44,237 bases of DNA from positions 1 to 44,237 of IMG/VR virus record IMGVR_UViG_3300008627_000014; one strand, 5' to 3'. The translations under genes and the position numbers were made by a program. Positions 1,419 to 44,237 of the stretch are shown here, one piece after another. This DNA is from a virus. The notes below the pieces were generated by a model. That model was not told the origin of the DNA. It ran no database searches and saw only the letters and a list, made by a program, of their open reading frames with translations. Within the stretch, counting starts at the first letter, position 1. Each line of letters starts with the position of its first letter.

Positions 1419-2107
1419 TATACATCTCTTCCTTTATTAAGTGTATGTGACCCTGCATCATAATTAAGGATTGTGGTACTGCTTGATAATGTGACTGAAT
1501 TAGGAGTGATTCCATGTGCTGATATCTGTTGCCTTAAATTATATGATGTCCATTTCAATGCTTTAATATATTGTTCCATATTTCTAGGTTTTCCAAAATG
1601 TATACTTCCATCCTTAACTTTCCAATAATTATACTCTATCATCTTATTTAACATTGGTCTTTCTGATAAATATACATTTTTCATCCAATCTCCAAACCCA
1701 TCTTTATCTCCAAATATCTTTGCGTTCTTTGGTTTCAAGACATATCCCTCAATAGTTTCATCTTCTTGTTCTTCATGTTCTACCATTTCTTCATAATCAG
1801 TATCATCTATTAATTCTCCACCAGCTGGTGAACCATATCTTTCTAACATCTGTCCAACAGAATCCTCTATCTGTGCGTCTGCTACAATTGCTTCTATCGC
1901 TGCTTGTTTCATACTTTCAGGATTGTCAGTAAAACTCATATTTCCTGTTGTTTGTGATGAGGCTTGATATAATGCTTCTCTTAATCTTCTTTTTCTTTGC
2001 CCCACCTGTCTGTTAGATGTTGCAGAACCTCGTCTTTCATTTAATGATTGTAAGAACTTGTCTGCTTCCTTTTCTAAAAATGAAGCAAAAGGAAATCTAT
2101 CAGGCAA
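1418..2107 (-). CDS. Putative neck/head-closure protein
   Basis: 229 residues, not recognised by sequence. It has a basic N-terminal helix with RKRRLREALYQ, a very acidic middle (residues about 100-120, DYEEMVEHEEQEDE) and a C-terminal half with aromatic residues. It overlaps the upstream connector gene by 8 nt and the downstream tail terminator candidate by 1 nt, so it belongs to the connector cluster. Synteny suggests a head-closure or neck protein; a minor virion protein is equally possible. Confidence 0.45.
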   Translation of the reverse strand: MPDRFPFASFLEKEADKFLQSLNERRGSATSNRQVGQRKRRLREALYQASSQTTGNMSFTDNPESMKQAAIEAIVADAQIEDSVGQMLERYGSPAGGELIDDTDYEEMVEHEEQEDETIEGYVLKPKNAKIFGDKDGFGDWMKNVYLSERPMLNKMIEYNYWKVKDGSIHFGKPRNMEQYIKALKWTSYNLRQQISAHGITPNSVTLSSSTTILNYDAGSHTLNKGRDV

Positions 2108-2765
2108 TTGGTATAATTTCTTGGCGTTGGGTGATTACTCTTTGGATATCTTCTTTCCATTGATTAATAGAATCTTTCCAATCCCATCCACCAGAACCTC
2201 CAACAGGTAAAATATCTGCTCTAAATGATGTTGATAATAATTCAATTGCAGTTAGTTTAATACATATATCTGTAATATCTCCCGGTACAGTTGTATCACC
2301 ATAACGATAAGTAATTCTCATTCTGTTCTTTCTCATTACAGTAAAGATATATCCTCTCATGTATAGTCTTCCATATTCGGGGTCTAATACAAATCCACCA
2401 TCAGAATTATCAGTAATATCAGTATAACTTGCTGAACCTCCGGGATTACCTCCAGAAGCCCCTGCATAAACCTCAAGTGAATCACCCGAAGCTGAAACCA
2501 ATCCACCATCTGCATCAGTTCTAATTTTTCTATGTCGGAGGAAAATAGGAGTACCCCAACCAAATTCATAGATAATAGGCATGTCATGAACTTCAGTAGT
2601 AGCAGTTGCTTCACGCCATGCGTGACCTGTTCTTCTGTCTATTTCGTCTTCCTTACGATTGATTAGTTTTTCTACTTGTGTAATATTAGGTGTTGTTGTA
2701 GCTGTTATATCTACCCTCAAAAAGTCTGCCACATCAGCGACTGAACAATATACAGGTGTAACCAT
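2100..2765 (-). CDS. Head-tail connector (gp6-like adaptor)
   Basis: 221 residues. The N-terminal part, with CSVADVADFLRV followed by a helix with RKEDEIDRRTGHAWR, resembles HK97 gp6-type adaptors, which have an alpha-helical N-terminus, a 'D..TG..W' turn and a beta insertion. It lies downstream of the capsid gene and ahead of the neck and tail genes. A TATA-like CTTTAAAAG at 2787-2796 stands 25 nt ahead of the ATG. Confidence 0.6.
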   Translation of the reverse strand: MVTPVYCSVADVADFLRVDITATTTPNITQVEKLINRKEDEIDRRTGHAWREATATTEVHDMPIIYEFGWGTPIFLRHRKIRTDADGGLVSASGDSLEVYAGASGGNPGGSASYTDITDNSDGGFVLDPEYGRLYMRGYIFTVMRKNRMRITYRYGDTTVPGDITDICIKLTAIELLSTSFRADILPVGGSGGWDWKDSINQWKEDIQRVITQRQEIIPIA

Positions 2766-2786
2766 GTTTAAATATGATAGTTGTCT

Positions 2787-2796
2787 CTTTTAAAGA
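2787..2796 (-). promoter_or_regulatory. TATA box of connector gene
   Basis: Minus-strand ATCTTTAAAAG about 25 nt upstream of the ATG at 2765. Confidence 0.5.
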
Positions 2797-2801
2797 TTAC
2801 C

Positions 2802-3224
2802 CTAGTTTTCGCCACGATGATATACATGTAATGTACCATGAGTATCTGCAACTGATGATTTTACTCTAAAAACCAATCTTGAATAAGGATTATCTAATGT
2901 ATCAATTGTTGGTGCTGCACTTGCTGTTAATGTTGTTTCTGCTTTTATTTGTACCCACCCGTTATCATAATCATCATCATCTGTTCCAGTCATATCTGTC
3001 TGGTCAGCGAAAGGTAATGTGGTTGCCCAAATTTCATATTTCAAATCATTTGAAGCATGAGTATTAAATGAAGTAATTACTGAACTTCTAATACCTCTAC
3101 AATCAATATCAAGAACCGTTGCATAAGCATTAGTTGATGTAACTGGAGCATTTCTTCCATAAACACCTACCAGAGAACCTCCATCATTATACGGTTTTTC
3201 TCTAGGAGTATCTACTTGAGCCAT
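2802..3224 (-). CDS. Putative capsid decoration/fibre-like beta protein
   Basis: 140 residues, Thr/Ser/Asp rich with short alternating hydrophobic stretches, and ending in LHVYHRGEN. No helix-rich region and no catalytic motif are seen. It lies between the capsid gene and the connector and has its own strong TATA box (3245-3254). That fits an abundant beta-sandwich decoration or head-fibre protein, but this is inference. Confidence 0.45.
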   Translation of the reverse strand: MAQVDTPREKPYNDGGSLVGVYGRNAPVTSTNAYATVLDIDCRGIRSSVITSFNTHASNDLKYEIWATTLPFADQTDMTGTDDDDYDNGWVQIKAETTLTASAAPTIDTLDNPYSRLVFRVKSSVADTHGTLHVYHRGEN

Positions 3225-3244
3225 AATAAATCAACGTATTCATA

Positions 3245-3254
3245 CTTTATAAAG
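3245..3254 (-). promoter_or_regulatory. TATA box, gene at 2802-3224
   Basis: Minus-strand CTTTATAAAG centred about 25 nt ahead of the ATG at 3224. It is one of the cleanest archaeal-type promoters here. Confidence 0.65.
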
Positions 3255-3261
3255 ATATTGG

Positions 3262-3277
3262 AAAAAAATAAATAAAA
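3262..3277 (-). terminator. T-rich terminator after gene 3283-3651
   Basis: On the minus strand the stop of the gene at 3283 is followed by CTTTTATTTATTTTTTTC, a poly-T tract of the kind that stops archaeal RNA polymerase. Confidence 0.45.
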
Positions 3278-3282
3278 GGGAA

Positions 3283-3651
3283 TTAAAATCCGTATACCCT
3301 TAGTTTACAAGTCATTGTAATAGAGTCAGCATCATCTGCTTCATCAAAGGCTGCACTAGCAGTGCCTGATTCGTATATTTTAAGTTTACCTAATGCTGCT
3401 GCACTGGATGCACCATGAACATACTGTACTGAATTGCCTGTTGAAACCTCTAGAACCTCTACTGCTATGATTGTGTCTATTCTTCCATCTAATGATAGGT
3501 CTACTACATTGCCCCCGATATCATAATCTTCGGTTGCATAAGTAACGTCTACAATAGCCACTTTCAATTTAGAGAGTAGTTCTGCTTGTACGGACAGTGT
3601 TTTTCCGGTCAATGATTTATGGTCGGAATTCTGTGCGATTGCCAAAGTCAT
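3283..3651 (-). CDS. Putative small capsid-associated protein
   Basis: 122 residues of beta-rich composition (VVDLSLDGRIDTIIAVEVLEV, then TMTCKLRVYGF at the end). It lies directly downstream of the major capsid gene with its own TATA box, and a T-run follows its stop. The position suggests a decoration protein or capsid stabiliser; there is no recognisable family signature. Confidence 0.45.
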   Translation of the reverse strand: MTLAIAQNSDHKSLTGKTLSVQAELLSKLKVAIVDVTYATEDYDIGGNVVDLSLDGRIDTIIAVEVLEVSTGNSVQYVHGASSAAALGKLKIYESGTASAAFDEADDADSITMTCKLRVYGF

Positions 3652-3671
3652 TAATATAATGCATTAACAGT

Positions 3672-3682
3672 GATATATAAAG
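3672..3682 (-). promoter_or_regulatory. TATA box, gene at 3283-3651
   Basis: Minus-strand CTTTATATATC, about 25 nt upstream of the ATG at 3651. Confidence 0.6.
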
Positions 3683-3685
3683 ATT

Positions 3686-3699
3686 TAAAAAATAAAAAA
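3686..3699 (-). terminator. T-rich terminator after major capsid gene
   Basis: A minus-strand TTTTTTATTTTTTAAA tract lies just past the capsid stop codon at 3714. Confidence 0.45.
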
Positions 3700-3713
3700 G
3701 AGTTTTGGTTTGA

Positions 3714-4940
3714 CTAAAGTTTGATATCTCTAATCTTGCCTTGTGATTTAAAGTGTCTACAGACGGTTTCTCCCATTGTTCTGAACAATGCTTTCTCAAC
3801 AAGCGTGTTGCTGTTGATGAATGGATAACCCGGAGTACGTCTAGTGGCTTCGTAATACTCTGTTGGAATTGCGACTTGGATACCCAATCTTGGATAACCG
3901 AATCCCTCTGCATCAGATGTGTCCAATGCGAACAATCTTCCGACTTCAACAGAAGCACCTTTTGGTGCATCCTTGGTTGGAATGAATGGAACTCCGTAGA
4001 GTGAATTAACGTGTATACCAACACCAGTGCCGTCAAATGTTTTAATTCCGTTTACATCGACTTGAACAATCTTCTCACCGTATGGGTTTGCGACCCTGAC
4101 TTGTGGGAGATATAAGCCTTGTATCTCAGAATAAACTTCGTGACTGCCTAGGAACACATTTGGGTCTTTACCAGCTGCGATTCTAATTTTTCTTAAGTGA
4201 GTACGTAATACGTCATCAGTTAATACTCCATCAGTACCGATTGTGCCGGAAGCTGAATCAACAGTAGAGTCATAAGTTGTACCAGAATCTCTGTCAATTG
4301 CAGAGGTTGTTCCTGCCCAAGGGTCATAGTTGGTAGTATAAGTACCACCTAATGCATCTTCTTCAGCATCGGAAGAAATAATTCTGTCCAATGATTCAAA
4401 GTCATTAGTTCCTGCCCAGTTAGCAGTGGCTGCTCCAGCTGGAACTTCAACGTCTGCCAATAAGGCTTGGTTGATTAATTCTTTATGCTGTACTGCCATG
4501 TACAATCTGAGTGAACCGAGTCCACCCCAAATGTCGTCTTTACTGTGATTGGAAAGCCATTCCATAACTTCAGATGTACTGAAAGTTAGTGCCATTGTTT
4601 TTGGTCTGACGTCAATTTCAGCGATAGCTGGTTTGACAGTGTCAGGAATAACACCACCCTCGGCTACACCACCTTTGGAAGTGTTGCCTTGTGCTGTGTC
4701 AATGGTTGGTCTTGAAGAGATAACCCTCCATCCAGATTTGTCCCACGGATATTTTGGTAATACACCGAAAGCGTTTGCTTCTAAGTTTAATTGAGCCCAT
4801 GCATAAGCACCAAAGACTGCGTTGAAAACGCCACCTGTTGATGTCAACATTGGGTTATTAGTCTTAGCAACTAGGCTTCGGCTAAATCCACCGTAGTATA
4901 GAGACTCTAATTCGTCCATAGTTCTAATACCGTTCACCAT
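3714..4940 (-). CDS. Major capsid protein, HK97-fold candidate
   Basis: 408 residues, a normal length for an HK97-fold shell protein. The N-terminal part (about 1-60) is helical, followed by a P-domain-like region with TMALTFSTSEVMEWLS near residue 115. A central low-complexity Thr/Asp/Gly-rich insertion lies around 190-240, and a C-terminal part contains GVPFIPTKDAP and RLGIQVAIPTEYYEATRR. Gene order protease, scaffold, this gene, connector is the standard HK97 arrangement. It overlaps the scaffold-like gene by one base (TAATG). No fold was computed; the call rests on order, size and general sequence style. Confidence 0.75.
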   Translation of the reverse strand: MVNGIRTMDELESLYYGGFSRSLVAKTNNPMLTSTGGVFNAVFGAYAWAQLNLEANAFGVLPKYPWDKSGWRVISSRPTIDTAQGNTSKGGVAEGGVIPDTVKPAIAEIDVRPKTMALTFSTSEVMEWLSNHSKDDIWGGLGSLRLYMAVQHKELINQALLADVEVPAGAATANWAGTNDFESLDRIISSDAEEDALGGTYTTNYDPWAGTTSAIDRDSGTTYDSTVDSASGTIGTDGVLTDDVLRTHLRKIRIAAGKDPNVFLGSHEVYSEIQGLYLPQVRVANPYGEKIVQVDVNGIKTFDGTGVGIHVNSLYGVPFIPTKDAPKGASVEVGRLFALDTSDAEGFGYPRLGIQVAIPTEYYEATRRTPGYPFINSNTLVEKALFRTMGETVCRHFKSQGKIRDIKL

Positions 4941-12702: not shown

Positions 12703-13407
12703 ATGGTCACAGAAATAATTTGTAGAGCTATAACAAATGGAACTTTTGATTCTGTCAGGGTTTCAGGTGTAACGTTATCAAATCAACTAGAAGATGATAA
12801 GAAATTTGGATTTCTAGAACCAACAAACGGTATTCTAACATATATTATTCTTAACAATGATAGAGAAATAAAAGAAAAACAAGTAAGAAGAGCAGTTGGA
12901 ATGGCACTTTTCGGGTGGAGAATGAGAGTACCAATCAAATTTAGAAGAGTAAAAAACAGGCTAGACGCAGATATTATACTTGAGTTTAGGTCAGAAGAAG
13001 AGGATGAAATACTAAATTCTAACACTTTAGCCTACATGTATTATCCATTAGGAGGGGTAAATAACGGTGTTTGTGTTATTAATAAGAGATTCCATTGGAC
13101 TAATGATGGTAAAGGTGTTGATATGCATTATGTTGACCCTGTTCACTATCCCACACCAAAACATACAAACCCAATTGGGAAAACATATGATTTAGACAAG
13201 GTGTTAAGACATGAATTCGGTCATGGTATATTTGGTTTACCTCACTCACAAAATAACAATGTCATTATGACAGGTAATGAAAGTATAATGAGTGAACATT
13301 TACAAGATGAGGATGTAATTAGAGCACAAGCCAAAGCCGGTATCAGACGTGGGTTTGCACATCGGTTAACTAACATGTTACGTTGGTACAAGTTGCGAAG
13401 CAACTAA
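12703..13407 (+). CDS. Metzincin-like zinc metalloprotease
   Basis: 234 residues. HEFGHGIFGLPHS at 170-182 is close to the matrixin/metzincin site HExxHxxGxxH, but has one extra residue between the second and third His. A following NVIMTGNESIM could supply the Met-turn. No signal peptide is visible, so it may act on the virion or inside the cell. The N-terminal part (VRRAVGMALFGWRMRVPIKF) looks like the usual beta/alpha protease fold. It could be a virion maturation, entry or lysis protease. Confidence 0.7.
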   Translation: MVTEIICRAITNGTFDSVRVSGVTLSNQLEDDKKFGFLEPTNGILTYIILNNDREIKEKQVRRAVGMALFGWRMRVPIKFRRVKNRLDADIILEFRSEEEDEILNSNTLAYMYYPLGGVNNGVCVINKRFHWTNDGKGVDMHYVDPVHYPTPKHTNPIGKTYDLDKVLRHEFGHGIFGLPHSQNNNVIMTGNESIMSEHLQDEDVIRAQAKAGIRRGFAHRLTNMLRWYKLRSN

Positions 13408-14160: not shown

Positions 14161-14242
14161 TAAAATTGACGGATTAGAATATTTCAAAAAAGAGCTAAGA
14201 TATAATATATCTAAAATTTATGGAGTTGAATTAAATGTATAA
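14147..14242 (+). CDS. Micro-ORF, hypothetical
   Basis: 31 residues. AAGGAGAT lies about 8 nt before the ATG. It ends by overlapping the sulfotransferase start by 8 nt, so it may couple translation of that gene. Confidence 0.35.
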   Translation: MLNTDKIDGLEYFKKELRYNISKIYGVELNV

Positions 14243-14762
14243 GGATTCGATATTTGAATTAGACAAATCTAAAAAATATGCACTGGTAGGTGCAAGCAAG
14301 TGTGGTACTACAAGTTTCACAAAATATTTGGGGCAGAACGGGTATCACGTTGAGAAACTTGACTCTTGGTTATGGTTTCCAGAGTTTATAGCTGGGGTAA
14401 AACCCGGGGGTAAATTCGAGGGGTATGTACCTATTATGATTTTACGAGACCCGGTTGAGCGTGCTTGGAGTCACTACCACTATATGTTTCAGAACAAACC
14501 TGTAGAGGATACGGATGAGCATATAAAGAAACAAAGACTGGAAGAGGTCTCTAGGAAGAGCTGTTATACTCCGTGGCTGATGAAATGGCTTGAGCAATGT
14601 GATGACCTACGTGTGTTTTGGTACGAGGATTTGGTTTCTCTCCCCGATTTTCCTCATGAGAATGCGACTGTGGTGAAACCTGAACTTGACGATGAGACTA
14701 GAGAAAAGATTGAAGAGTATATTATGGATGAGTTTAAAAAACAATCAGACTTACCCAAATAG
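14235..14762 (+). CDS. Sulfotransferase-family protein
   Basis: 175 residues. GASKCGTTSFTKYL at 19-32 is the PAPS 5'-phosphosulfate loop, and LRDPVERAWSHYHYMF at about 70-85 is the 3'-phosphate motif. Both are characteristic of the sulfotransferase family. It is shorter than typical enzymes (about 250-300), lacking much of the C-terminus. It would transfer sulfate from PAPS to a sugar or other acceptor, perhaps a virion or cell-surface glycan. A divergent relative lies at 8540-9079. The GC-richer codon use (CGT, GGG) differs from the neighbours. Confidence 0.75.
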   Translation: MYKDSIFELDKSKKYALVGASKCGTTSFTKYLGQNGYHVEKLDSWLWFPEFIAGVKPGGKFEGYVPIMILRDPVERAWSHYHYMFQNKPVEDTDEHIKKQRLEEVSRKSCYTPWLMKWLEQCDDLRVFWYEDLVSLPDFPHENATVVKPELDDETREKIEEYIMDEFKKQSDLPK

Positions 14763-22581: not shown

Positions 22582-24936
22582 ATGGGTAATGAAACAGTAG
22601 GCGAGGATAACCTCGAAGTATATACTCCTGATATTGGAGAAAGTCAAGAGATAGGTATTGATGAAACAACAACAAGTTATTCTCCACGTTTAAACAAACT
22701 TAAAGAGGGGGAAACTATCCAAGTTAAACTAAATGAAAAGGCAATTAAATGGCGTATTTCTCACGACTTATACAAAGACTTTAAATCTGGTGTAAGAGAA
22801 TTATTCCAAAACGAAGCAAGGGCTTGTCGTCAGGCACGTACTAAGTATAATGCAAAGCCAAAGATTGAGGTAAGAATTAATCCAAACACTAAGAGTTTAA
22901 CCATTCAAGGCATTGATTCTCTAGGTATTAGTGAATCTGTATTTGATAATGTGTTGAGAGTTCTTGGTGTGTCAGGTAATACTGATGGAGGTAATGAAGT
23001 AGGTCAATTTGGTATGGGATTTGCTTCTTATACAACGCTTAGTGATATTATTCTGGTTGAAACTTGGTATCGTGAGAATAGAGATGATGGTAGTGAGCAA
23101 CGTTATGCTTTCTTAGGGGATAATGGTATTGACTTTAAGATTCTCCCCGAACCTGAACTAGATACATTTGGAACAAAGTTATCCATGACATACAATGTAA
23201 AGGTAGAGGAACGTGGTATTATTGACATGATTACAGAATGTGCCAAGTTTTGTGGCGTTCCTGTAAGTCTTATAGTTGATGGAACATGGGACACTTATCA
23301 TGAGTATGGACATGAGGGTATCTATGAACTTACAACCTATAAATCATTACCTGATTGTTTAAAGATACAGTTCCAAGAGAGATGTGTTCAGGATAAAATG
23401 TATGATGAAGATGGTATTAACTATGATTCAGATACAAGAGTAGGATTTTATAAAGAAGTTCATATAGATAACGAGGACTATGAGTTCTTTGGTATTATTG
23501 CAATCGCTAAGAGTAAGACAGGTGATTACACAAACAGAATGAATAGTATTATGAACTATCATTTGTTGGCAACAGTTCCGATAGAGATTAACTTCCGACC
23601 AAAAGGATTTTGGACATCTTATGCACTCAATATTAAAAATGAGAGAAAGTTTATGCCAACAGCAGATAGAGATAGACTTACACAAGAAGCAGAAGAAGAA
23701 ATACAAAATGCTTTCAATGAAATCATACCAACATACTTTACAGAACTAGGATTGGAAACTGTTAGTGATTACTTGTCCACGTTAGACAAACCAATCTATG
23801 ACCAATGGTATTACTTTGAATCATTAATTGATAAAGAAGTGTATGAAAATTCTCAAAGAGTTATAAGTGTATTAGGAAAGAGATTTAGTTTAGGTGGCAC
23901 TCGTTCATATAGAACATTAAAGTCTATGATTGCTAGTGGTTCAACCATGATTAAGTTAAAGGCTTTGCGTGGTGATTACATAGCAAGACTAGGAACTGTA
24001 TTTGATGACAAGATTTGTTTCAGATATAAAGAGAGTGATGAGGGTGGTTACGAGGAAAACTATAACAAGACATTAGATTTGCTTGAAGAAGCAGGAGTAA
24101 TATTCGGAGAGGAATATATCAAAGAGCATAAGATTAAACCACTCACAAAGAAAGAAAGAAACACGGGTAATAAGATAGCCAACTCAGAAAAAGCAATTAG
24201 ATTATACAACGCAGGATATAGACATCACCATGAAGTAGATGGCGAGAGAGCATTTGGGTTGGCAACAAGTTACAGAAGAAGTATTGTATCAACTAAGGTA
24301 GGACAAGTCAATGAAAAAATGCACGATAATATGATTGTGTATGATTTGAAAGGTAAGGACAAGATAGAGTTTGATGAAATCAAACAGAAACTATACAGCA
24401 CGGAAGCAAGTTATGTATTCATGAAAAACATAAAGGGATTAGACGAGGACATCTTAAAGTTTAGTGAGTATCTTGTGGACATTGATAATCATAAGTTTAC
24501 ATTAGTTAATGGAAAACAGTTACGAGTAAAAAGTATGATTGAGGCAGTTCCTGTTATAATGGGTGACCATATAGCAATCAATAAGTTATGTGATAACAAA
24601 GTAGTAAAAGGTTACGAACATTGTGTAGTAGTCAAAGACCAAAATGAATTATTTGATTTGGAATTTGCATTAAAGAAACATGGTAAGTATACTAGCAGAG
24701 GCTATCAATCTAATTGTAGTGAAAGTGATTTGATTGAGAAATCAAGTGGTATAGATGTAGAGGACATCACCATGTATTGTAACGATGCACAAAAGAAAAT
24801 AATCTATTCTAAACTACCTAATGTTAAGAACAAACTTAGTGATGGTATGTTCAGGGTATTCTTTAGAGCAGTAGCAAGTAGACCTTATGATTTTGATAAG
24901 ATACTTGCAGAATTAGATGAGGATATGAAAGAATGA
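22582..24936 (+). CDS. GHKL-type ATPase, T4 rIIA-like size
   Basis: 784 residues. The N-terminal 230 residues carry the Bergerat ATP fold of the Hsp90/MutL/topoisomerase VI-B group. The N-box is VRELFQNEARA (Glu73, Asn77), then IDSLGIS (Asp112, Gly115), the glycine lid VGQFGMGFASY (140-150), and TFGTKLSM (195-202). Beyond about residue 400 no known domain is seen; the C-terminal half is Lys/Glu rich. Large phage proteins with only this N-terminal ATPase include the rIIA group, of similar length. Topoisomerase VI B is less likely because no A subunit is present here. The stop overlaps the next gene (ATGA), so the two are likely partners. Confidence 0.75.
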   Translation: MGNETVGEDNLEVYTPDIGESQEIGIDETTTSYSPRLNKLKEGETIQVKLNEKAIKWRISHDLYKDFKSGVRELFQNEARACRQARTKYNAKPKIEVRINPNTKSLTIQGIDSLGISESVFDNVLRVLGVSGNTDGGNEVGQFGMGFASYTTLSDIILVETWYRENRDDGSEQRYAFLGDNGIDFKILPEPELDTFGTKLSMTYNVKVEERGIIDMITECAKFCGVPVSLIVDGTWDTYHEYGHEGIYELTTYKSLPDCLKIQFQERCVQDKMYDEDGINYDSDTRVGFYKEVHIDNEDYEFFGIIAIAKSKTGDYTNRMNSIMNYHLLATVPIEINFRPKGFWTSYALNIKNERKFMPTADRDRLTQEAEEEIQNAFNEIIPTYFTELGLETVSDYLSTLDKPIYDQWYYFESLIDKEVYENSQRVISVLGKRFSLGGTRSYRTLKSMIASGSTMIKLKALRGDYIARLGTVFDDKICFRYKESDEGGYEENYNKTLDLLEEAGVIFGEEYIKEHKIKPLTKKERNTGNKIANSEKAIRLYNAGYRHHHEVDGERAFGLATSYRRSIVSTKVGQVNEKMHDNMIVYDLKGKDKIEFDEIKQKLYSTEASYVFMKNIKGLDEDILKFSEYLVDIDNHKFTLVNGKQLRVKSMIEAVPVIMGDHIAINKLCDNKVVKGYEHCVVVKDQNELFDLEFALKKHGKYTSRGYQSNCSESDLIEKSSGIDVEDITMYCNDAQKKIIYSKLPNVKNKLSDGMFRVFFRAVASRPYDFDKILAELDEDMKE

Positions 24937-25682
24937 AAAAACTTGCAGAAAGAAGTAACGTATTCATAGTAGAAAACGAGGGTAAAGTATCAACACTAAT
25001 CAAAGATACATATACTATCCTAAAGATTAATGAGTTTGATGGTAACAGAATCTTTTATGATTTTGGTGATGGTTTAGAAGTAAAAGAAACTTATGATGAT
25101 AGAATCTTTAACTGTTTTAAAAACGGAGAGACTATTAACATTCGTGATGGTAACAAGATAGCCGAGTTTATTGCTGACAATAATTCAGCAGGGTATGATT
25201 CTTATTTCAAACAGCATTACTATGAACAACACCGATTAGAATTTGTAGATGAAGTAATAAAATCCTATGGTGATAGGGTTGTTAAAATTCCTGATGGTTA
25301 TCTAGTAGATGACATTTGGAAAGTAAATAATACAGGTTCATCATATTATTTGGCAAAGAATCACAAGGGTTCTTTCGACCAAGATGTAGTAAATGTTCAT
25401 GGTGAAACTGCAAAAGGAAATGAGGGTGATTGGCATTTCTTATGCACGGTTGCTCAAGGTAATTTCTTGAAGATGAGTATAGATACTAAGATTGGTTCAC
25501 TTGAATTAGATTCAACAACCATGACTATACTTGCAAAGATTAATTTCCTTATGAATCCAAACATAAATGATAGTGTGTTCATGAATCAACTTCCTAAAAA
25601 GATTAGTAAGTTATTGATTGATGAGCATGAATCAAAACAAAAAGATACAGTAGAATTAAAAGATGGAGGCGATTATATATGA
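24933..25682 (+). CDS. Partner protein of GHKL ATPase
   Basis: 249 residues, not recognised. Beta-rich N-terminal half (NVFIVENEGKVSTLIKDTYT, FYDFGDGLEV), a helical middle with many His and Tyr (YFKQHYYEQHRLEFVDEVI), and a helical C-terminus. Translationally coupled to the ATPase by ATGA and to the following gene by the same overlap. It could be a functional partner, as rIIB is to rIIA, but shows no rIIB likeness by eye. Confidence 0.5.
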   Translation: MKKLAERSNVFIVENEGKVSTLIKDTYTILKINEFDGNRIFYDFGDGLEVKETYDDRIFNCFKNGETINIRDGNKIAEFIADNNSAGYDSYFKQHYYEQHRLEFVDEVIKSYGDRVVKIPDGYLVDDIWKVNNTGSSYYLAKNHKGSFDQDVVNVHGETAKGNEGDWHFLCTVAQGNFLKMSIDTKIGSLELDSTTMTILAKINFLMNPNINDSVFMNQLPKKISKLLIDEHESKQKDTVELKDGGDYI

Positions 25683-26779: not shown

Positions 26780-26906
26780 TCAAACTAGGTGTAATCATTG
26801 TGAAAAACGACAAAGATTACGAGAAAAATATGAAGGAAAATGCAGAAATTGTTTTCTTGCACATAAAATAGTATTTGAATATAGAGGTAAGTTTAAAGAT
26901 GAATAG
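26763..26906 (+). CDS. Basic zinc-ribbon micro-protein
   Basis: 47 residues: CNHCEKRQRLREKYEGKCRN, then C, giving a compact CxxC...CxxC ribbon rich in Arg and Lys, suited to nucleic-acid binding. Overlaps both neighbours. Confidence 0.5.
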   Translation: MNLTVSQTRCNHCEKRQRLREKYEGKCRNCFLAHKIVFEYRGKFKDE

Positions 26907-27549
26907 AAAAGAAGCGAGTAAGATTATTGGTGGCTTGACTACAACTAGCAAAATGCCATGCCCTAGTTATTCACTCCCTGCTACTTCGTGTAAGATGGGT
27001 AGTAAATTAGTGAATGTAAAGGGTAGTGTATGTGAGGGTTGTTATGCCCTCAAAGGTTTCTACCGATTCAAGCAAGGTCGTAATGCTAGAGAGATACGAC
27101 TTGCTAGTATTTATAAACCAGAATGGGTAGAGGCTATGGTTACTGCACTTGAATCTCGTAAGGATAAGTCATACTTTAGATGGCATGATAGTGGGGACTT
27201 GAATAGTATTATGCACTTGTCTAATATAATGGCAGTTGCTACTCGCACACCTAATACTAAGCATTGGCTTCCTACTAGGGAGTATAAGATGGTTAGTGAT
27301 TATGTTAAGAATGGTCTTTCTATTCCTAGTAATATGTATGTTAGGATTTCTACTTATATGATTGATGGTATTCCTCCCCTCGAATTTGCTCGTAAGTTAA
27401 ATGCTTATGAGAATGTGGAGGGATTCATTGGTGTAAGTAGTGTAAGTAAGAAAGAATATAGTTGTCCTGCATATGAACAGGGTGGACAATGTGGGGATTG
27501 TCGTGTATGTTGGACAACAAAAGAGAACGTAACTTATCCGTTCCATTAA
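26899..27549 (+). CDS. Gp88-family protein
   Basis: 216 residues from ATG 26899, chosen for the GAGGTAAG ahead and the 8-nt overlap with the previous gene. It carries the whole signature of the mycobacteriophage gp88 family: SKMPCPSYSLPATSC (18-31), GSVCEGCYALKGFY (42-55), FRWHDSGDL (93-101), HWLPTRE (122-128) and CPAYEQGGQCGDCRVCW (189-205). The conserved Cys pattern and HDSGDL suggest a metal or iron-sulfur enzyme, but no activity has been shown for the family as far as I know. Confidence 0.8.
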   Translation: MNRKEASKIIGGLTTTSKMPCPSYSLPATSCKMGSKLVNVKGSVCEGCYALKGFYRFKQGRNAREIRLASIYKPEWVEAMVTALESRKDKSYFRWHDSGDLNSIMHLSNIMAVATRTPNTKHWLPTREYKMVSDYVKNGLSIPSNMYVRISTYMIDGIPPLEFARKLNAYENVEGFIGVSSVSKKEYSCPAYEQGGQCGDCRVCWTTKENVTYPFH

Positions 27550-40690: not shown

Positions 40691-40703
40691 TCCTTTATAA
40701 AGT
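40691..40703 (-). promoter_or_regulatory. TATA box of gene at 40672
   Basis: Minus-strand AACTTTATAAAGG about 25 nt ahead of the ATG at 40672. Confidence 0.6.
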
Positions 40704-42097
40704 TATCCGAACAGATTTTCTTGAAGTTCTTTTGACATGGTTAATACATGCCATTGGTCTCCATGTGAGATTGCTAGGCATACAAGTGCTATTGCATCTG
40801 CATAATCGTCCTTACCATCTGATTTAATCTTCATAATACCTGTCTCTGTATACTCTCTTGACATAACACTGAACTGTTCTACTGCTGTTTGACCTATGTT
40901 TCTTATCTGATGTTTCTCAAATACAACTCTAAGTGATTTAAACATCTCTTCTTTTGCATGTAGTGAGAACATTTGTCCTCTTATTGGTATGCTTCTTTCT
41001 TGTGCTAAGTCTATTAATCCTCCCCCCAAACCTGTCTCATCTACATAACATATTTCAACATTCCATTTTTTTACCAAGTCTTCCATTCTTCCTGCTACAT
41101 CAACTACATTAGATTGAGACTCGTGTTCCATATGACATATTCTACCTATACCATTTTCATCAACTTCCATAACACAGTATACAGTTTCATCACGACCTGT
41201 TCTTGCAATATCTACACCCATATATCTACGGACTTGACCTTTTGGTTTATAATCATCTAATGCATCCATAAGCATTTCATGTGGAATTAAAGCATTACCG
41301 ATATCTAGGAATTCTCCCTCTACCTCAAGAGCATACTGTTCTTGTGTCATTGATTCTAAGAATGTCAAGTATTCGGGGTCGGCTGCAATCAACGGGTTGT
41401 CATATGACTTAACATGAAATTGTGTCCACTGTCCTTTTGCATCAACAACTTCACCATTAATCTTTTTAGACTTCATACACGCTTTGTAGAAATAACCTTG
41501 TTTAGAGAAAGGTGTAGACGTAAGCCAAATCCTAGCCCTAGTCGCAGCCCCTGCTGGAAACAATGCTCTTAATATTTCTTCTTTGATAAATGAACACTCG
41601 TCCACGATGATAACGTGAGGGGAATAACCCCTGACACTACTACCTGTTTCACCTGTAGCCTTTGTTGCAATATGAGTAACACCTTGGTCATTAAGCCAAC
41701 GTAGTCCAATTTCTGCTTGGGTATTCTTTACTACAAAACCTGAAAGAAATTCACTAGATGTTATGAGTGTTCGTATACGCTCATACATGATTTTTGCTTG
41801 GTCTTGTGTAGGTGCTACAATCAGAATGGTACATTCCTTGTCAACTGTATCCAATAATAGGGGGGCAAAAAAGGCAAAATGTATAGCCTTAATGGCAGTT
41901 GTCATTGTCTTACCAACCTGTCTACCAGACCTGTATACTATATATCTGTCAAATGAATCAGCATAGTTTTTGTTATAGTCAAATACTTTATGACCTAAGA
42001 ATTTCTCAGAAAAAGCACTAGGTTTCTCAACACATTCTACAAAATCAGAAACGAATTCTTCTCTTGCTTCCTTAATCTCATCAGGAGTCCTTGGCAT
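40703..42097 (-). CDS. terL: Terminase large subunit
   Basis: 464 residues. ATPase: Walker A YRSGRQVGKTMT (55-66), Walker B HVIIVDECSF (161-170) and coupling motif LTSTPF (192-197). Nuclease: GVDIARTGRDE (Asp296), YVDETGLGGG (Asp353) and DDYADAIAL (Asp430-434). It is the motor that packs DNA into the prohead through the portal and cuts it. The start overlaps the upstream TerS candidate by 17 nt. This gene proves the tailed-virus nature of the window. Confidence 0.95.
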   Translation of the reverse strand: MPRTPDEIKEAREEFVSDFVECVEKPSAFSEKFLGHKVFDYNKNYADSFDRYIVYRSGRQVGKTMTTAIKAIHFAFFAPLLLDTVDKECTILIVAPTQDQAKIMYERIRTLITSSEFLSGFVVKNTQAEIGLRWLNDQGVTHIATKATGETGSSVRGYSPHVIIVDECSFIKEEILRALFPAGAATRARIWLTSTPFSKQGYFYKACMKSKKINGEVVDAKGQWTQFHVKSYDNPLIAADPEYLTFLESMTQEQYALEVEGEFLDIGNALIPHEMLMDALDDYKPKGQVRRYMGVDIARTGRDETVYCVMEVDENGIGRICHMEHESQSNVVDVAGRMEDLVKKWNVEICYVDETGLGGGLIDLAQERSIPIRGQMFSLHAKEEMFKSLRVVFEKHQIRNIGQTAVEQFSVMSREYTETGIMKIKSDGKDDYADAIALVCLAISHGDQWHVLTMSKELQENLFG

Positions 42098-42617
42098 TAT
42101 CCATCAAATGTTTCTTGGCTGATAGTTCTTTGAATACTGATTTTATTAATCCATCCTTGTCTAATTCTGTGGTTTCTTTTACCTCCACGGAACCTGATAA
42201 TTCTTGCATTTGTTGCATGGTTTTCAAAAGCATATTCAGTTGTGATATAGTATTACGGTCAGGTATATTACCATCCATCTTCATTTGGGCTAGAGATATG
42301 ACTGTGTTCTCTGACATTATATGTATAAATTCTCCTAGTAATTTCTTTAAATCTTCAGGGTTACGTGTATCTAATTGTTCAATATATGAACTGAACTCGT
42401 CACGTATGGCACAAACAGCGTCCTTTTCATATTTAGGACATTTGCCATTACCTCCCTCATCTATTGCCTTGTAAATACAATTGTTACATTCGGCAGGGAG
42501 ACTGGCATTCTTAAAATGTTTCAATGAGTTATATGGTGATATTGTTTTTCTTTTATCTTCTGATACTTCTAGTTCTTTTTTTCCCTCGATTTTCTTAATT
42601 TTAAATATATCATCCAA
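42081..42617 (-). CDS. Putative terminase small subunit
   Basis: 178 residues just ahead of terL and overlapping it. Central Cys cluster CNNC...CPKYEKDAVC (43-69), then long helices with an oligomerisation look (LNMLLKTMQQMQELSGSVE). No helix-turn-helix is evident. TerS is inferred from position and size. TATA box at 42641-42650. Confidence 0.55.
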   Translation of the reverse strand: MDDIFKIKKIEGKKELEVSEDKRKTISPYNSLKHFKNASLPAECNNCIYKAIDEGGNGKCPKYEKDAVCAIRDEFSSYIEQLDTRNPEDLKKLLGEFIHIMSENTVISLAQMKMDGNIPDRNTISQLNMLLKTMQQMQELSGSVEVKETTELDKDGLIKSVFKELSAKKHLMDNAKDS

Positions 42618-42815: not shown

Positions 42816-43589
42816 TTAACACATAAAGTTTTCGGAGTATATACCAAATGTCTTACATAGAGGCATTACATTCAAAGCTATTGGTAGTCGTAATAATGCG
42901 TCATACTCATTATCTAATACATCCTGTTTCTTTATGTTACATTTCTCTAGGTTGTCTTTATATTGTTCTAGTATGTATTGTAGTTGTGATTTCATGTGTT
43001 TTCCTTTCTCCCCGAAGAACATAGATGTAGAACTGTTGTTTCGCCAAACTTCTGTCTTCTTAGATACTGCTGCTGAAATCCAAGCAGATGTATCTAACGA
43101 TTCAAACATTCTATTCTTAGCAATATACTTACCTTTAGCAAGTCCATGTAATTTAAGATTTCCGGGAAGTCTTCTTATTTGTTCTTCTGTTTCTATTCTT
43201 CCTTTTACCTCTCCTATACATACATAGTCATCAGGTTTAGGTTTCAATAACATTAGATGTTGTTGGTAGTTCTCTTGTAAAACTGGAAGTGTCCAATCTA
43301 TCCCCATCTCTCTCTCTTTTTCCAGATACTTCATAGTTTCTTTCATATCATAAAATACATCAAACTGTGTTGCATAATCATACTTATCCCTGTTATCCTT
43401 TAACCATTGGTGATAAAGTGTAGGGTCTTTTATATTAACGCCTGCTACAACGAATACTTTGTCAAAGTTATCACGGTATTTATCTATGCTAGCATATGCA
43501 TATTTGTGTGCTACCATCACATTTTTTACACCACAATCTATCAGAGCAGTTCGTGTGGCTAGGTTGTTTGCATTTAGAAATAATTTCAT
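42816..43589 (-). CDS. DpdA-like tRNA-guanine transglycosylase homologue
   Basis: 257 residues. It matches the phage group often called queuine tRNA-ribosyltransferase-like (DpdA). DWTLPVLQENYQQHL (98-112) is the 'PVLQ' strand, VCIGEVKGR (123-131) the glycine loop, LHGLAKGKY (147-155) the 'HG(F/L)' strand, and FESLDTSAWISAA (162-174) the family's S.D...W motif. It is shorter than cellular TGTs and lacks the zinc motif. DpdA enzymes insert 7-deazaguanine bases into DNA. Archaeal hosts make preQ0 for archaeosine, so the virus could rely on that supply; no synthesis genes are here. Confidence 0.7.
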   Translation of the reverse strand: MKLFLNANNLATRTALIDCGVKNVMVAHKYAYASIDKYRDNFDKVFVVAGVNIKDPTLYHQWLKDNRDKYDYATQFDVFYDMKETMKYLEKEREMGIDWTLPVLQENYQQHLMLLKPKPDDYVCIGEVKGRIETEEQIRRLPGNLKLHGLAKGKYIAKNRMFESLDTSAWISAAVSKKTEVWRNNSSTSMFFGEKGKHMKSQLQYILEQYKDNLEKCNIKKQDVLDNEYDALLRLPIALNVMPLCKTFGIYSENFMC

Positions 43590-43705
43590 CCTACTAATGA
43601 AACAATATGCTTACTTATATCCTTATGTATATCTGATGTATTTTTATCATCAAAGAATAATCCACATCTAAAACAGATGGAATATGCTCTAGTCTTCTTT
43701 TCCAT
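43586..43705 (-). CDS. Small C2H2-like zinc protein
   Basis: 39 residues: CFRCGLFFDDKNTSDIHKDI, then SKH give CxxC...H...H spacing. It overlaps the nuclease gene upstream and the DpdA-like gene downstream (ATGA), so it is co-expressed with both. Confidence 0.45.
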   Translation of the reverse strand: MEKKTRAYSICFRCGLFFDDKNTSDIHKDISKHIVSLVG

Positions 43706-44237
43706 ATGTGCCAAAACACTCCATAGCATACGGACAGAATCCATCACATAGATAGTTTCTAGTCCTTTCAGGTAGTTCTCCTGTCATTTTAAAGTGTTTC
43801 AAAGTATCCATATTCTCTTTTACCCACTTGTCGGTTTCTTCTATTTCATCAAGTTTGAAATATAATGGGTGTATCTTATCTCTATCTTCTTTAGATACTG
43901 AATTTGGTATATAAATTACACAACCATATTTAGAATCTATACCTAGGCATTTCTTTAATAAACTACGATAAACATTAATCTGTGTCATATGGATGGCATT
44001 AGGTTTCTTATCTCTTTTCTTGATAAAGTAATCTATACTTCCTGTTGTCTTTTTATCTGATATAACATATTGTCCATTTATTTCCATAACATCATCTACA
44101 CTTCCGTATAATATGTTTAGTTGTCTTGGGTCATCTTCTGGTATTAATTTGGCTTCTTCTAATGTTAATGCTTTTTCCTCCTCGAAATCATAAGCCAAAA
44201 AGACTTCATGTAATTCCGGTTTGGTTAGCATTGAATT
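43689..44237 (-). CDS. RecB/Cas4-like nuclease, 5' end cut by window
   Basis: At least 182 residues; the frame is still open at the window edge, so the start may be outside, though ATG 44231 is possible. GSVDDVMEINGQYVISDKKT holds the D...D-x-K core of PD-(D/E)XK nucleases of the RecB/Cas4 group. CDGFCPYAMECF near the C-terminus supplies three Cys of an iron-sulfur cluster; the fourth would lie near the N-terminus, perhaps beyond the window. Likely a DNA end-processing exonuclease. Confidence 0.7.
   Translation of the reverse strand, partial: NSMLTKPELHEVFLAYDFEEEKALTLEEAKLIPEDDPRQLNILYGSVDDVMEINGQYVISDKKTTGSIDYFIKKRDKKPNAIHMTQINVYRSLLKKCLGIDSKYGCVIYIPNSVSKEDRDKIHPLYFKLDEIEETDKWVKENMDTLKHFKMTGELPERTRNYLCDGFCPYAMECFGTYGKED

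Follow-up and report, generated by a model that had tools for sequence, protein, structure and literature searches.

Genes for preQ0 synthesis are usually found in the same genome as a DpdA gene, but they are not essential. The DpdA subfamily of archaeal viruses is DpdA4. Enterobacteria phage 9g carries its DpdA gene among preQ0 genes. The archaeal tailed virus HRTV-29 has DpdA alone, and the part of its description cited here reads this as supply by the host (PMC8651126). Among phages with DpdA only, LC-MS detected no 7-deazaguanine in Orion and about 0.02% of G modified in 7-11 (PMC6884629). In TGT, attack of Asp280 on the sugar gives a covalent intermediate; Asp102 takes a proton from the base that enters and assists base exchange (PMC6165067). 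Here we describe a TGT-like gene in IMG/VR virus record IMGVR_UViG_3300008627_000014. The whole 44,237-nucleotide stretch analysed (positions 1 to 44,237 of that record) is referred to as the window.

The TGT-like protein, its fold and its active site

The gene has the coordinates given in the initial annotation, 42816 to 43589, but runs along the minus strand, from an ATG at 43589 to a stop codon that ends at 42816, and encodes 257 amino acids. Together with its IMG/VR relatives, the most distant of which are about 35 to 40% identical, the protein forms a set of 63 distinct sequences. Comparison of the window gene with its closest relatives gave a dN/dS of about 0.07, so the gene is maintained under strong purifying selection. 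The motifs S.D...W, PVLQ and HGL, on which a DpdA-type identity had been proposed, all are present (S164-L-D166-T-S-A-W170, P102-V-L-Q105 and H148-G149-L150) and are not chance occurrences. S164, W170, P102, L104, H148 and G149 are invariant among the 63 sequences, and Q105 is Gln in 54 of them; the conserved positions comprise N8 and N9, G50, Q75/D77, Q105, G126, H148-G149-K152 and S164-D166-W170. The family named from these motifs was right, but PVLQ on its own does not mark a DpdA, because the aligned canonical phage DpdAs have His at the Gln position.

When the window protein was scanned as a single sequence, no TGT came up in Pfam, PHROGs, NCBIfam, PADLOC or the PDB sequences, and family-wide scans yielded nothing better than one member matching PHROG 887 at an E value of 0.26. 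An AF2 model built from 23 relatives (pLDDT 88, pTM 0.86) was compared with known structures using Foldseek. All seven PDB matches with E values of 0.001 or less were TGTs, the best being 2ash (E = 2.7e-5, probability 1.00). Against viral structures there were 26 matches at the same threshold, with phage queuine-TRT/DpdA proteins on top. Those that carried names were mostly queuine-TRT/DpdA (Megan, E = 1.5e-8) and included Vibrio phage nt-1 protein R9TGF0 and a putative queuine-TRT of Sulfolobales Beppu rod-shaped virus 1. SAM and AAA identities, suggested by weak matches, were rejected since the fold search gives TGT.

Profile-profile comparison with hhalign matched the window family to Streptomyces phage BRock gp36 (E = 1.4e-7), Mycobacterium phage Knocker (1.2e-6), Arthrobacter phage Sonali (3.2e-5) and the Bacteroides-type DpdAs (2.1e-5). 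All 300 unrelated phage ORFs run as controls were negative (best E = 0.0073), and the match to the 9g DpdA alone was not significant (0.02). PHROG 887 also matches the TGT-like proteins of relatives directly (E = 1.3e-8 for L095 and 8e-5 for L077), and the window protein reaches the BRock set at 1.2e-11, through the family profile only. Membership in the TGT/DpdA superfamily, as the initial annotation had proposed, is thus settled by Foldseek, by hhalign with its controls and by the PHROG 887 matches, and the same analyses make phage DpdA the nearest neighbour of this barrel. One Bacteroides-type DpdA, L183, entered the hhalign comparison minus an insert. Judged by eye, the insert, several hundred residues long, is an apparent intein, and it splits the protein exactly within its active-site motif (SDSS / TTW; ORF 1518-3716 of MT835482.1 60378-68803).

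Relatives were sparse outside IMG/VR. The sole match in the phage record collection was weak (BRock gp36, E = 0.9; annotated in RefSeq as queuine tRNA-ribosyltransferase). Assemblies of cellular genomes, queried with the TGT-like alignment and with RadA, yielded no relative and therefore no evidence of a provirus. HVTV-1 gp69 and gp83, which lie beside the preQ0 genes of that virus, were the only two of its proteins compared as candidate relatives of the archaeal DpdA4 type, and showed no similarity.

From the DpdA alignment and known TGT motifs, we take Asp102 to be the Asp of DSG and Asp280 that of S.DS. Canonical phage DpdAs have Asp at both positions, namely those of 9g (LDSGAF, SCDSSSW), Knocker, Sonali and Bacteroides phage BS162P1. 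The 9g protein resembles the window protein in its HG motif, where His196 corresponds to H148 (kept in 63 of 63), and in S.D.S.W, but differs in keeping DSG. The nucleophile position, D166, is Asp in the window protein and in 60 of the 63 relatives; the other three have Asn and all come from one metagenome. The DSG position falls in V48-A49-G50, with V48 replacing Asp, and no Asp or Glu occurs there in the alignment of 63, which has V, I, T, G, N or S. Loss of this residue throughout the family means that the TGT-like protein may have changed its job. D77 is altered in 9 of 63. The invariant polar residues also include N8, N9, N23, Y59, Q75, K152, S164, W170, S172 and K178, several of which map to predicted barrel strands or immediately behind them in the AF2 secondary structure, the region that houses the pocket in barrels of this kind. 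We infer a pocket that is altered yet still under selection, and no dead scaffold.

The four-gene cassette and the 4-Cys partner

Packaging and nuclease genes had been noted next to the TGT-like gene, and this was confirmed. On the same strand, a gene for a PD-(D/E)XK/Cas4-like nuclease (43689 to 44237, minus; about 255 amino acids in relatives, its N terminus beyond the window end) precedes the TGT-like gene. A gene for a 178-residue protein (42081 to 42617, minus) follows, with the pattern CxxC...KCPxYExxxxC and then a predicted helical hairpin. We refer to it as the 4-Cys protein; C44, C47, C60 and C69 are invariant. Its 3' end overlaps by 17 bases the start of the TerL gene (40703 to 42097, minus; 464 amino acids), whose best annotated relative is in the haloarchaeal virus HGTV-1 (29%). 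The order nuclease, TGT-like, 4-Cys, TerL is constant: the 4-Cys gene comes immediately after the TGT-like gene in all 75 relatives, TerL is next in 74 (the exceptional contig has only 846 bases left), and the nuclease precedes in 73, both exceptions being near contig ends. This cassette and the incomplete active site are two points that go beyond the earlier reading of the sequence.

Analysis of PHROG 887 ("queuine tRNA-ribosyltransferase"), which has BRock gp36 as a member and spans at least 110 IMG/VR contigs, revealed the relationship between the two central genes. The TGT-like domain is the N-terminal half of this family, and the C-terminal half matches the 4-Cys protein (E = 7.8e-5 for the window and 2.3e-10 for L061). 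Since PHROG 887 matches both proteins, the TGT-like and 4-Cys genes are two halves of one fused family. Gene fusion and adjacency together argue that the two proteins are a working pair. The AF2 model of the 4-Cys protein was too poor for detailed reading (pLDDT 52), the oligomeric DNA-binding ring by which terminase small subunits stimulate TerL included, and its fold search was therefore set aside; the one good match, A0A8S5QQE4, also was matched by the TGT-like model.

The BRock-type members of PHROG 887 align with both genes of the window but differ in being single fused proteins of about 500 amino acids. Their nucleophile is Ser instead of Asp in 71 of 73, and D/E-S-G is kept in most. The fusion gene lies tens of kilobases from TerL, beside NTase-, HAD- and class II RNR-like genes, so the packaging linkage is not universal. 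In the BRock-like loci (L098-L177), the Ser-nucleophile fusions share an invariant RYPKKMKDQAR stretch, and constant neighbours that, by eye, look like genes for an NTase, a HAD phosphatase and a class II RNR. A distinct module for modifying nucleotides or DNA is one possible reading of these loci.

Bacteroides phage BS162P1 and two related contigs have separate, adjacent genes in the same TGT-like, 4-Cys order as the window, and the motifs HG and S.DS..W. They differ from the window in the full catalytic set (DSG, SVDS), in preQ0 genes encoded by the phage, and in a pair that is not beside TerL. A QueC-like gene is directly upstream of the pair, and in the two related contigs a gene that by eye is a QueE-like radical SAM gene follows; QueD, and in two cases FolE, are elsewhere in the same record. 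In phages of this type (L194, OP172706.1 7000-14000, and the L178 and L183 records), QueD sits immediately ahead of a TerL-like gene and a long way from QueC, DpdA and the 4-Cys gene, and 7-deazaguanine and packaging genes again are close together.

The 4-Cys domain also is the C-terminal region of annotated actinophage terminase small subunits of 455 to 485 amino acids, whose genes stand immediately ahead of TerL in Rhodococcus phage Mbo2, Gordonia phages Woes and GMA7 and Tsukamurella phage TIN3; the label of small terminase is in these cases annotation only. The link was obtained by tblastn (3e-3 for Mbo2), by hhalign of the 4-Cys protein against the C-terminal region (E = 8e-6; best of 300 controls, 0.0068) and with PHROG 887, which matches the C-terminal part of these proteins (best E = 4.6e-4). 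Likeness extends over the 4-Cys domain and the region that follows it, and the 4-Cys gene of the window stands in the same spot, immediately before TerL. The actinophage proteins differ in an N-terminal part of their own of about 280 amino acids without detectable TGT similarity; a TGT barrel there, suggested by visual likeness, was unsupported with several profiles. Apart from the 4-Cys gene, nothing beside TerL in the window was recognisable as a candidate small-terminase gene. HGTV-1 gp2, gp3 (annotated as TerS) and gp4 gave no significant match to the 4-Cys profile.

The virus, its host and the supply of preQ0

The proposal of an archaeal tailed virus stands. The window encodes MCM, a Rad51/RadA protein, a portal and a major head protein, in addition to a TerL nearest that of HGTV-1, and its MCP is related to those of amoC-carrying viruses. 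amoC was found in six records with the same cassette family, and two of these six have an MCP that shares about 74% identity with the window MCP, so marine ammonia-oxidising thaumarchaea are most likely the hosts. Ahlgren et al. 2019 reportedly described marine thaumarchaeal amoC viruses. The six cassette-family records with amoC resemble these; the window differs, its record being a linear fragment with no amoC.

The remaining genes include several of note, all on the plus strand. Positions 12703 to 13407 encode a Matrixin-type metalloprotease (PF00413, E = 3.7e-18), and 26875 to 27549 a member of the phage "Gene product 88" family (PF17338, E = 6.3e-29). The 784-residue product of 22582 to 24936 has the look, by eye, of a GHKL/HSP90-type ATPase and a weak PHROG match; with the 249-residue product of the gene that comes after it (24933 to 25682), it recalls T4 rIIA/rIIB. 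A weak sulfotransferase-like match at 14235 to 14762 (PF00685, E = 0.0024) is below the cut-off.

The initial annotation had reported no preQ0 synthesis gene in the window and suggested use of a host precursor. Indeed, QueC, QueD and FolE were found in none of 21 records (the window and 20 related ones of 45 to 68 kb, possibly incomplete). One thaumarchaeon is reported to encode most archaeosine genes, and thaumarchaeal TGT to lack the PUA domain (PMC6790972). These genes make a host preQ0 precursor plausible for the window virus, and the same was proposed for HRTV-29, an archaeal tailed virus that likewise has DpdA without preQ0 genes. HRTV-29 is likened to the window by description; it differs in being haloarchaeal, and no terminase cassette appears in the part of the description cited here (PMC8651126).

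Possible functions of the pair

The reading we favour, at a probability of roughly 0.4, is a divergent two-component DpdA-like unit that acts on viral DNA in connection with packaging. The TGT-like protein would be one half of this unit in marine thaumarchaeal viruses. The 4-Cys protein, encoded at the usual spot of a small terminase gene, would be the other half and would bind viral DNA and connect the TGT-like protein to TerL. Asp166, the counterpart of the covalent nucleophile Asp280, may attack guanine glycosidic bonds in viral DNA, with N8, N9, H148 or K152 standing in for the missing DSG Asp. Guanine would be swapped for a host-made 7-deazaguanine, and the DNA would be marked at packaging or just before. 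A packaging role is conceivable because the 4-Cys partner is obligate and linked to terminase small subunits. The loss of DSG, the D77 changes, the D166N cases and the lack of preQ0 genes in 21 records speak against this reading, as do the Ser nucleophile of the BRock-type fusion, the distance of its gene from TerL, the failure of single-sequence searches to match the window protein to TGT, and the N-terminal part of the actinophage small terminases, in which no TGT similarity was detected.

We favour the two-component unit over a split small terminase and over plain protective modification. In a split small terminase, the TGT fold would exchange no bases and, with the 4-Cys protein, would recognise the packaging start and load TerL, catalysis being lost or vestigial. 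In favour of this are the overlap of the 4-Cys gene with the start of TerL and its homology to the C-terminal region of proteins annotated as small terminases. In addition, no other such gene was recognised beside TerL in the window, the catalytic Asp residues are eroded, and the fused sister family has lost the nucleophile. We nevertheless consider this reading unlikely: D166, H148, K152 and other pocket residues are near-invariant, a degree of conservation that a mere scaffold would not require, the Bacteroides-type pair sits with preQ0 genes and the BRock-type gene beside an RNR-like gene far from TerL, and the small-terminase labels are annotation. The protective role raised in the initial annotation is possible on the sequence evidence but somewhat less likely again. 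An active DpdA would swap guanines genome-wide for host preQ0- or archaeosine-type bases, shielding the DNA from host nucleases, and adjacency to TerL would be operon convenience. The TGT fold, the kept nucleophile position and the preQ0 pathway genes of the Bacteroides-type relatives are consistent with this, as are the thaumarchaeal archaeosine genes and PUA-less TGT (PMC6790972) and the HRTV-29 precedent, as far as its description is cited here (PMC8651126). It leaves the invariant tie to the 4-Cys and TerL genes unexplained, the DSG Asp is missing in 63 of 63, and the two DpdA-only phages measured had no modified G or about 0.02% (PMC6884629).

A TGT that modifies host tRNA during infection is very improbable. 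It would belong to the same superfamily, and the PDB matches are tRNA TGTs, but the 257-residue sequence has neither the CxCxxC...H zinc site of tRNA TGTs nor the PUA domain of the usual archaeal TGT, and no Pfam match to TGT or PUA. The window protein also is nearer phage DpdAs and has an invariant DNA-packaging context, and thaumarchaea have their own TGT (PMC6790972).

To return to the two-component unit, the TGT-fold enzyme and the 4-Cys protein might form a packaging initiator that recognises and possibly guanine-marks viral DNA, base modification or recognition licensing packaging by TerL. This proposition is doubtful, if slightly less so than the split small terminase. The 4-Cys domain would join 7-deazaguanine DNA modification and genome packaging, which usually are treated apart, and DpdA-like enzymes would gain a partner protein. 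This raises the question of the role of DpdA-only viruses whose DNA has little or no 7-deazaguanine. For viruses of ocean ammonia oxidisers, we found no study of DNA modifications or packaging in the literature.

In one further record, IMGVR_UViG_3300022690_000065 (L032/L070), the TGT-like gene occurs twice. The two copies are divergent, face opposite ways and each have Asn in place of the nucleophile; either a true duplication or a join made during assembly could account for them.
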